From Nakamurella deserti (GTDB taxonomy: Bacteria; Actinomycetota; Actinomycetes; Mycobacteriales; Nakamurellaceae): a DNA stretch of 64,000 nt. Positions 12,604 to 15,125 of this stretch are shown here, one piece after another. The notes under the pieces are model-generated. The model was given only the letters and a program-made list of their open reading frames with translations, was not told the DNA's origin and did not search any database. The stretch spans positions 2,604,001 through 2,668,000 of the forward strand of contig NZ_QCXS01000002.1 of the NCBI RefSeq assembly GCF_003260015.1, in the 5' to 3' direction. Position 1 is the first letter of the stretch; the number at the start of each line of letters is the position of its first letter. The position numbers and the translations under genes are program-made.

Positions 12604-12840
12604 GGCAGTCCTTCGCAGGGGGAGTCGGGTGTGGTGCGGGTTGGCGCTGCGGCAGACCTCGCCGCGATGTCTCCAGAGTGCCGCCCTTCCGACTGCCCAA
12701 CCATGAACACTTCGACACAAGGTGCGCCCTTTTCGTTGCCGAACCTCGGCAGATTCACTCCGAAGATGGTAAACGTCTGTCAAAGCCCTCGGAGTGGTGT
12801 GCGACCGCGGACCGACGGGACGCGGATGGAGGTCAGCCGA

Positions 12841-13080
12841 CTCCGGCCCGACGCCGACCGGCCCCCCGGACGCACCCCCGGGCGCGGCTGTCGCGGTGGC
12901 GCCGGACCCGCGCGCAACCGAGGCGCGGCTGTCGCGGCGTCACCGACCCACGCCCGACCGGACGCACGTCGGGCGCGGGCTGCCGTGCTGTCACCGACCC
13001 ACGCCCGACCGGATGCGCGCCCGGGCGCGGGCTGTCGCGGTGTCGCCGACGCAGTCCAGACCCGGATGCGCGCCCGGTAT
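12841..13080. repeat. Imperfect ~50-bp tandem repeats upstream of the riboswitch
   Basis: The phrase GCGCGGCTGTCGCGG or a close variant recurs at 12882, 12923, 12973 and 13024 (spacings about 41, 50 and 51), with ACCCACGCCCGACCGGA between copies. The stretch 12604-13089 separates divergent terC and the DUF4395 transcription unit; apart from these repeats and a terC -35-like box I see no gene in it. Confidence 0.7.
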
Positions 13081-13089
13081 CGTGGCGTT

Positions 13090-13200
13090 CAGGTGATGAG
13101 CGTCAGCGACAAGCTCTGGCTGGCTGACCGGCAACCCTCCGCGACGACGGGGTGCTCCAGGAGAACCACCTGGCCGGCGTCGACCGACGCCGGCAACGTC
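13090..13200 (+). promoter_or_regulatory. SAM-IV-type riboswitch
   Basis: The leader of the DUF4395 gene matches my recollection of the actinobacterial SAM-IV aptamer. The conserved order is GGTGATGAGCGTCAGCG, then CTGGCTGACCGGCAACCCTC, then CGGGGTGCTCCAGGAGAACC. P1 can form between CAGGTG (13090-13095) and CACCTG (13167-13172). A further stem GCCGGCGTCG/CGACGCCGGC follows at 13173-13194. Binding S-adenosylmethionine should lower expression of the downstream gene. The ribosome site GGGAG at 13230-13234 lies just after, so control of translation is plausible; no obvious U-rich terminator is seen. Confidence 0.85.
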
Positions 13201-13239
13201 GTGACCGGATGCCGTCCGGTCCCGTTCCCGGGAGCTGCC

Positions 13240-13731
13240 GTGGCTGCGGTGTTCGCCTTCCCCCACCCCGTCAACGAGAAGGCCGCGCGGGCCGTCGCCG
13301 GCCTGGTCGTGCTGCTGAGTACCGCCGTGCTGGTCACCGGCAGCCCCTGGTTGCTGGGCCTGCTGGCCCTGGGCTTTCTCGCCCGGGTGGCGGCGGGGCC
13401 GCGGTTCTCGTTGTTCGGGCGGCTCGCCACCCAGGTCATCGCGCCGCGACTCGGCCCGGCGGTACCCGTGCCCGGACCGCCCAAGCGGTTCGCGCAGGCC
13501 GTCGGCGCGACGTTGTCGATCGCGGCCTTCGGGTGCCTCGTCACCGGTTCTCCCACCGCCGCCCTGGTGCTGGTCGGGATGATCACCGTGGCGGCCACGC
13601 TGGAGTCGGTGTTCGCCGTGTGTCTCGGCTGCGTCGCCTTCGGTCGGTTGCAGGCGCTCGGCGTCATCCCGGCGTCGGTGTGCGAGGCGTGCAACGACAT
13701 CCGGCTGCGGCGACCCTCGGCCACCTCCTGA
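13240..13731 (+). CDS. DUF4395 domain membrane protein under SAM control
   Basis: A 163-residue protein with hydrophobic segments near residues 20-45 and 85-120. The N-terminus AVFAFPHPVNEKAARAVAG is the DUF4395 signature, and CEACNDIRLRR ends the protein. The start is GTG 13240 with GGGAG 5 bases before it. An in-frame ATG at 13096 is rejected because it lies inside the SAM-IV-type aptamer. The riboswitch ties the gene to sulfur or methionine metabolism. DUF4395 proteins often lie beside thioredoxin-like or sulfurtransferase genes, but here it stands alone. Its exact role is unknown. Confidence 0.82.
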   Translation: MAAVFAFPHPVNEKAARAVAGLVVLLSTAVLVTGSPWLLGLLALGFLARVAAGPRFSLFGRLATQVIAPRLGPAVPVPGPPKRFAQAVGATLSIAAFGCLVTGSPTAALVLVGMITVAATLESVFAVCLGCVAFGRLQALGVIPASVCEACNDIRLRRPSATS

Positions 13732-13734
13732 CGG

Positions 13735-14925
13735 TCAGGCCCGGTCCGGCCAGCCCAGCAGCCGGGCGCCGGTGACCGCGGTCTGCAGCTCGAAGCGCTG
13801 CGCCGGGTCGGCGGGGTCGCGTCCGGTAAGTTCGGCGATCTTGGCCAGCCGGTAGGTCAGCGCCCGCACCGACAGGTGCAGCGAGCGACCGGCCAGGGAG
13901 GCGTTACCACCCGCGGCGAAGTACGCCTCGAGGGTCTGCAGCATCGGCTCGACACCGCCCCGGGCGTGCACCAACGGCGCCAGCACCGTCTCGACAAGCT
14001 CCAGCATCGCGGCCCGGTCGCGCACCAGAACCCGGTGCATCAGCAGATCGGCCGCGTCCAGCACCTGGGCGGTCCCGCCCAGCTGGGCACCCAGCTCGAG
14101 TGCCTCCAGCGCCTGCTCGTAGGACGCCCGCACGCCGCCGGGGCCCTGGTGCGCCCGGCCCACCCCCATCCGCCAGGAGCCCACCGCGGCGGTCCGGCGG
14201 AGGTTGACCCCCTCCCCGGGATCCGACGGCAGGCTTCCGGTCAGGCCCGCGATCACCTCGTCGATCGCCGCCCGGTCCGGCGCGGCGAACACGACGACCA
14301 GGAGTCCGTCCTTGGTGGTGACCAGCGCGTCGGCGTCGGCGCTGCCGCCCTGGATGGCCCGTTCGAGCAGGGTCGTCAGCGGAGAGCTGTCGGTGAAGTC
14401 GCGTTCGGCGCGCACCACGATGACCGCCTGCGGGCCCACCAGGCTCAGGCCGAACAGGCCGGCGCGCTGCACGAGGTTGGGCAGCGCCTGCGCGCCCCCG
14501 ATCAGCAGGTCGTCCACGAACTCCCGGCGGGCGGCGACCTGCGACCGGACGAGATCCCGCCGGGCGAGCTGGTACCCCTCGATGAGGACGGCGACGGCGT
14601 CGTCGACCGACCGCAGCATCACCTCACCGGCCTGCACGACCGCCGCCGGATCGTCCCGGGCCGCGACCACCTCGGGGAGATGCCGCCAGAGCCGCCAGGC
14701 GGCGGACAGGTAGAGATCGACGAGCGCCCGCGGCGGCACCCCTCGATCGGCCGCCGCGCGGCCGGCGTCCCGGTAGCGGGCGAGGTCGCGGCGCTGCAGC
14801 CGCCGGCCGGACGCGACCGCGTCGACCAGCACCGGCAGGAAGTCGTCCAGCAGGGCGACATCCACCCCACCGGCGTCGGCGGCCGCGCGGGCGCCGATCT
14901 CGGCCACCGGTGGACCCTGCGTCAC
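13735..14925 (-). CDS. PucR-family transcriptional regulator
   Basis: A 396-residue regulator. The last 60 residues carry the PucR C-terminal helix-turn-helix (LQTLEAYFAAGGNASLAGRS, then LHLSVRALTYRLAKIAELTG). The middle region is GGDEF-like without the motif, as usual in this family, and the N-terminal 140 residues form a helical sensory part. GTG 14925 was chosen because GGGAGG lies 4 bases upstream; a 13-residue longer frame is possible. Family members respond to purine or other metabolites and often activate neighbouring genes. It ends 3 bp from the convergent DUF4395 gene. Confidence 0.88.
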   Translation of the reverse strand: MTQGPPVAEIGARAAADAGGVDVALLDDFLPVLVDAVASGRRLQRRDLARYRDAGRAAADRGVPPRALVDLYLSAAWRLWRHLPEVVAARDDPAAVVQAGEVMLRSVDDAVAVLIEGYQLARRDLVRSQVAARREFVDDLLIGGAQALPNLVQRAGLFGLSLVGPQAVIVVRAERDFTDSSPLTTLLERAIQGGSADADALVTTKDGLLVVVFAAPDRAAIDEVIAGLTGSLPSDPGEGVNLRRTAAVGSWRMGVGRAHQGPGGVRASYEQALEALELGAQLGGTAQVLDAADLLMHRVLVRDRAAMLELVETVLAPLVHARGGVEPMLQTLEAYFAAGGNASLAGRSLHLSVRALTYRLAKIAELTGRDPADPAQRFELQTAVTGARLLGWPDRA

Positions 14926-15125
14926 GCTGCCTCCCGGATCGGACACCGGCGGACGGGCCCGCACCGATGAGCAAGGTACCGGCTCGACCGCGCGCCCACC
15001 CCACCGCGGGCGCCACCACGCAGCGTGAACCCGGTCCGGCGACCGGGGGAACCGCAGGTTGCGTGGGTGTGGCCTTCCTCGCGAAGCCCCCGAACGGCGG
15101 GGTCACTGATCCATACTGGTCGACG

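Follow-up and report, generated by a model that had tools for sequence, protein, structure and literature searches.

A SAM-IV riboswitch aptamer directly upstream of a lone DUF4395 gene in Nakamurella

Organization of the locus

The locus lies within a 64 kb stretch of Nakamurella DNA (hereafter the window) and consists of a short leader followed on the forward strand by a single gene, which encodes a membrane protein of 163 residues belonging to the DUF4395 family (positions 13240–13731). The assignment is clear: the protein matches PF14340 with 125.6 bits against a cut-off of 24.5, over profile positions 1–129 of 130. The gene stands by itself, in agreement with the preliminary description of this DNA. 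Its upstream neighbour is a divergent TerC gene, while downstream a convergent gene for a PucR-type regulator with GGDEF-like and HTH_30 domains (13735–14964, reverse strand) falls outside the unit. The stop codon of the DUF4395 gene ends at 13731 and the convergent reading frame has its lower end at 13735, which leaves the 3 bp gap that had been described.

Two starts in the same frame had to be compared, ATG 13096, which lies within the aptamer described below, and GTG 13240. An in-frame start codon is present at most 12 codons from a conserved phenylalanine in 48 of 51 relatives, and in 23 of the 51 (counted from the rows) there is no in-frame start further upstream. The GC content at the three codon positions is 0.56/0.71/0.85 for 13096–13239 and 0.71/0.56/0.93 for 13240–13728. 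On the basis of the start positions in the relatives and of this change at 13240, ATG 13096 is rejected and GTG 13240 is supported as the better start, so that the correction made in the preliminary description stands. The correction matters, as an automatic gene caller could place the start inside the aptamer.

Four cysteines, present as a CLGC motif and a C-terminal CEAC motif, are invariant in all 52 proteins of an alignment that contains the window protein and those of 51 out of 80 named loci. The predicted structure (mean pLDDT 87.8, pTM 0.81) contains four long helices besides shorter ones. No useful relative was found among solved structures: the best Foldseek match has an E value of 1.8, and VIA-align returned only common four-helix arrangements with Z up to 8.6. 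At the sequence level there is a weak match to the FYVE zinc finger (E = 0.046), and no family was matched in an NCBIfam scan.

The SAM-IV aptamer

In a covariance scan of the 64 kb window, the Rfam model for SAM-IV (RF00634) matches positions 13092–13205 of the forward strand over all 116 model positions. The score of 87.9 bits (E = 2.1 × 10−14) is far above the gathering score of 38 bits, and nothing else in the window exceeds an Rfam threshold. Our own model of 37 SAM-IV sequences, which has the window aptamer itself among its training rows, gives the aptamer 92.1 bits and the next-best window match 14.2 bits. The identification as a SAM-IV-type riboswitch, with ordered conserved blocks and a closing P1 stem, is therefore borne out.

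P1 pairs GGUG (13092–13095) with CACC (13167–13170) and contains one compensated pair (C–G to G–C). The P2 loop provides the 5' strand of pseudoknot PK-1 (13115–13119), which forms all five pairs, one of them compensated, with 13157–13161. The P3 loop provides the 5' strand of PK-2 (CGACG, 13142–13146), for which CGUCG at 13197–13201 is the partner. P5 is a 9 bp hairpin with a GACC loop (13173–13194) that follows from the Rfam match and the alignment. A double-pseudoknot architecture has been described for the cryo-EM structure of SAM-IV (PMC6890682).

The structure was examined in an alignment of 37 SAM-IV copies, eight from the same genome and 29 from related genomes (those returned as loci). 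Across the helices and the two pseudoknots 98.0% of the cells are paired and 16 pairs are changed on both sides; these figures are a property of the family and not of the window row alone, and they lean towards the structure because the structure was derived from Rfam and from the same alignment. None of 500 shuffles gave a value as high, and partners that were slid along the alignment pair in 29–45% of the cells.

In the window row itself, 29 of the 30 nested pairs of P1, P2, P3 and P5 are formed. Compensated changes are present in P1, P2, PK-1 and P5, the columns of P5 being loosely aligned. PK-2 forms none of its five pairs as aligned and all five after a shift of one column, with two compensated pairs. 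The shift reflects a single base missing after CAA, which makes the linker before the 3' strand of PK-2 one base shorter. Since the shift was chosen after inspection, the pairing of PK-2 is weaker evidence than that of the other elements. The other 36 copies share 43 invariant columns. The window aptamer retains 40 of them, and the three that are lost (58, 120 and 121) belong to PK-2 or its linker. The near-invariant unpaired column 76 is A in the window and U in 35 of the 36 other copies.

The window RNA shares with SAM-IV (RF00634) the helices, both pseudoknots, the placement of the promoter and an actinobacterial sulfur regulon. It differs in that the sequences of P1, PK-1 and PK-2 are compensated but unusual, in the shortened linker and in having a lone DUF4395 gene as its target. 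Judged by its sequence, it is a genuine SAM-IV element, an ordinary sensor with an unusual partner gene. Origin by chance or as an artefact is ruled out by the covariance score, the compensated pairs and the promoter box.

Promoter and expression platform

A −10 box of the TANNNT type, TATCGT, is located at 13078–13083 on the forward strand, 8 nt 5' of the aptamer. With a distance of 4–11 nt before the aptamer allowed, such a box accompanies 36 of the 37 SAM-IV copies, at 5–10 nt, compared with 0.58% of random positions in the same sequences. This spacing predicts a transcription start near 13090, at the first base of the aptamer or immediately 5' of it. The SAM-IV transcript of Corynebacterium glutamicum was observed to begin 2 nt upstream of the Rfam start (PMC3890552). 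As far as the sequence tells, a transcript beginning downstream of 13170, which would have spoken against the riboswitch, is not to be expected. A generic sigma-70 scan, which also demands a −35 hexamer, found no promoter. Directly upstream of the −10 box is a 51-base tandem repeat in three copies (12922–13077).

The DUF4395 gene starts 34 bases behind the aptamer. An 8 bp hairpin (GACCGGAU/GUCCGGUC, 13203–13221) is located just 3' of PK-2, with no T run after it, and is followed by a Shine–Dalgarno-like GGGAG (13230–13234), read from the sequence, 5 nt before GTG 13240. A terminator scan of 12800–13900 found no intrinsic terminator between the aptamer and the gene, this hairpin included; the sole terminator-like site in that range, 13387–13402, lies inside the gene and was rejected as a platform. 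The region around the start is largely paired in every folded state that we computed, in which pseudoknots were entered only as unpaired bases, and no switch was revealed. A short open reading frame ending in cysteine codons, the pattern of a leader peptide, is absent after the window aptamer. In Streptomyces clavuligerus a SAM-IV leader is reported to yield a premature transcript (PMC8269248), and Rho-type termination is therefore possible for the window leader as well.

The SAM-IV regulon of the genome

In the Nakamurella genome (G000, 4.6 Mb) there are eight SAM-IV elements and a single DUF4395 gene; none of the other seven elements shares contig C2 with the window element. The targets of the other seven, assigned by reading of the open reading frames together with Pfam and NCBIfam, are sulfur-metabolism or transport-type genes. 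One element precedes a class-V aminotransferase that resembles desulfurases and SufS, the sufS match being below its cut-off. Another precedes a PLP enzyme of Cys/Met metabolism and an alpha/beta hydrolase, and a third an NlpA-type lipoprotein with an ABC ATPase and a permease; metY–metX and metQNI, respectively, are our readings of the Pfam matches. The remaining targets are two luciferase-like monooxygenases of NtaA/DmoA type (one above and one below the family cut-off), an amidohydrolase-like gene with a cysteine dioxygenase and, behind separate elements, an ABC permease and an ABC binding protein. Published SAM-IV targets include O-acetylhomoserine sulfhydrylase (PMC3774663), cysteine desulfurase (PMC8079986) and cg1478 (PMC3890552).

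At several loci a SAM-IV element is followed by a short open reading frame with a RRHVDLQRVSSALCR-like end, so that a SAM riboswitch and a Cys-type leader peptide stand in tandem. This arrangement is seen in the same genome (L012:6283–6366, L013, L014 and L015) and in congeners (L075, L076, L077 and L078). The pattern picks up three of the eight leaders of the genome and none of the 29 other copies, while L015 and the four congener leaders were recognized by eye. Against the NF042934 cut-off of 27 bits, the peptides of L012 (34.4), L075 (34.9) and L078 (27.9) score above and those of L077 (24.9), L014 (20.8), L013 (15.9), L015 (14.7) and L076 (13.5) below. No description of this tandem was found in the accessible parts of the literature covering both elements.

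Distribution of the SAM-IV–DUF4395 pairing

Among 61 genomes including G000, DUF4395 is found in 40 and SAM-IV in 37, the search for the latter using stricter filters with which weak matches are lost. When the listed places were compared by eye, the aptamer was directly before DUF4395 in one genome of the 61, G000. The 80 named loci of the same DUF4395 subfamily contain no SAM-IV, the best match (E = 0.32) overlapping the coding region. Class-wide, in 296 genomes, DUF4395 is present in 224 and SAM-IV in 188, and no close pair on the same contig was seen by eye among the places listed. Across 35 DUF4395 loci (20 of the 30 family-search loci and 15 of the 80 named ones) the Rfam families gave a 5S rRNA, a tRNA and no riboswitch. 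As the direct pairing was seen in G000 alone, it looks like a lineage-specific event.

DUF4395 is matched in ten Nakamurella genomes, with one match being partial and one gene split by an insertion. In G004 a SAM-IV element is located 2.8 kb 5' of DUF4395 in the same orientation. Between them are a leader peptide and then two luciferase-like monooxygenases, and the DUF4395 match starts where the second monooxygenase reading frame has its last base. In G012 DUF4395 is the last gene of a run on one strand that comprises cysN (TIGR02034, 547.6 versus 336.1 bits), ABC genes and CbiX. In G013 and G009 the gene is preceded by a Cys-type leader peptide with the pattern RRHxD...C, at a distance of about 98 nt (NF042934, 29.4 bits against the cut-off of 27) and 413 nt (15.9 bits, below that cut-off), respectively. 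These leader peptides in two congeners are found at L081:7016–7114 and L079:7847–7939, both on the reverse strand. The gene therefore appears under different sulfur sensors within one genus. With G004 included, the leader pattern is present at three of the 13 genus and order loci and at none of the 13 on the opposite strand. Cysteine leader peptides of the kind known from Actinobacteria (NF042934; described in PMC1262725) thus precede DUF4395 in G013 and G009 and form part of the SAM-IV operon leader in G004, whereas the window leader has none and its sensor is an RNA aptamer.

No sulfur-type control or operon of this kind was found at DUF4395 in G001, G002, G003, G006 and G015. G002 and G006 have beta-carbonic-anhydrase-like genes ahead of DUF4395. 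In G006 an aptamer is downstream of the DUF4395 gene and not before it; the gene in this genome is interrupted by inserted DNA that carries a transposase-like reading frame (L078:6433–7902).

Beyond the genus, the 80 named loci have no neighbour gene that is conserved in most of them. A Cys-type leader within 1.4 kb upstream is found at one of the 30 family-search loci and one of the 80 named loci, both being the same G009 locus. Among 53 upstream neighbour proteins of the subfamily (55 candidates less L088 and L109, obtained with a crude composition rule and including some spurious reading frames) there are five TauE/SafE proteins, one homocysteine S-methyltransferase and one PALP enzyme.

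Two types of DUF4395

DUF4395 genes come in two types. One is found in an operon with thioredoxin, rhodanese and DUF1416; the window type lacks this operon and carries a further pair of cysteines near its C terminus. The first is exemplified by L019, where thioredoxin, DUF4395, rhodanese and DUF1416 follow each other. With the L019 sulfurtransferase as a tblastn query, rhodanese adjoins DUF4395 at 23 of the 30 family-search loci, each time within about 160 bases, and four of the seven loci without it are Nakamurella loci. The same search found rhodanese at none of the 80 named loci and none of the 13 genus and order loci collected with or around the window type. Beside the window DUF4395 there is likewise no rhodanese, the neighbours being the PucR-type regulator and TerC. 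Both types are PF14340 membrane proteins with a CxGC motif; the window type differs by its added CEAC and by the missing rhodanese neighbour.

The earlier statement that the riboswitch ties the family directly to SAM or to sulfur status is too wide: the direct pairing was seen in this genome alone, and the sulfurtransferase operon that accompanies other DUF4395 genes is missing from the window subfamily. Nor is a sulfur link of PF14340 new. A role in sulfur metabolism was already proposed in the title of a 2014 paper (Lyubetsky et al., 2014, Comput Biol Chem).

Discussion

The aptamer, its promoter box, the gene and its start, the regulon and the gene neighbourhoods can be read directly from the DNA. 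The explanation that we favour, with considerable confidence, is that a SAM-IV riboswitch with its own promoter controls the lone DUF4395 gene, that SAM represses the gene and that the protein serves sulfur acquisition. Transcription would begin near 13090, which would make the aptamer the first part of the RNA to be produced. When SAM is plentiful the aptamer would bind it, the P1/PK-2 core would be held and expression of DUF4395 would fall. Both SAM binding and repression are expected by analogy with what is established for SAM-IV. We infer that repression most likely operates on access of the ribosome to GGGAG and GTG, or else via Rho, these routes being favoured because an intrinsic terminator is not present. 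When SAM is low, DUF4395 would be made with the rest of the eight-element regulon, i.e. together with functions in sulfur uptake and in methionine and cysteine metabolism. The protein would probably act in sulfur acquisition at the membrane, where it could perhaps move or reduce a sulfur compound via its two Cys-x-x-Cys pairs.

The riboswitch could also be real while sulfur is incidental to DUF4395. The protein might, for example, have a general redox or stress function in the membrane, and control by SAM would then say little about its function. We consider this unlikely: the lineage-specific pairing, the minority of sulfur families among the 53 upstream neighbours and the rarity of Cys-type leaders outside the genus would all fit, but four congeners have sulfur-type control or operons at the gene and the other DUF4395 subfamily adjoins rhodanese (23 of the 30 family-search loci). 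An on-switch, or a transcription attenuator in place of a translational switch, is rather improbable. Known SAM-IV targets are biosynthetic and SAM is expected to turn them off, which argues against the former; for the latter, the premature transcript of S. clavuligerus is a precedent that has to be set against the lack of an intrinsic terminator between the aptamer and the gene. That the aptamer has become degenerate or weakened, and is still transcribed without switching DUF4395 any longer, is very improbable. Column 76 departs, a linker base is missing, no platform is recognizable and the score is below those of five of the seven other copies of the genome, tying with one and exceeding one. 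Decay, however, would break pairs. Here, where paired positions have changed, compensating changes preserve the pairing in P1, P2 and PK-1 and, once the shift is applied, in PK-2, and the promoter box has been retained.

A more specific proposal can be entertained tentatively. Window-type DUF4395 may be a dedicated membrane protein of sulfur limitation that deals with the sulfite or reduced sulfur set free by flavin monooxygenases, and its gene would have been captured repeatedly by different sulfur sensors in Nakamurella: by SAM-IV in the present genome, by SAM-IV together with a cysteine leader in G004 and by leaders alone in G013 and G009.

The SAM-IV class and the proposed sulfur role of PF14340 were known before; what is new is a SAM-IV element directly before DUF4395, an arrangement of which no description was found in the accessible literature on either family. 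This placement suggests a benefit of the protein to the cell under sulfur shortage. It provides an uncharacterized family with a single-gene control point that is defined by a metabolite, and the role of DUF4395 can therefore be tested in a simple way. Taken with the sensors found in the congeners, the finding lends support and precision to the published proposal of a part for PF14340 in sulfur metabolism.
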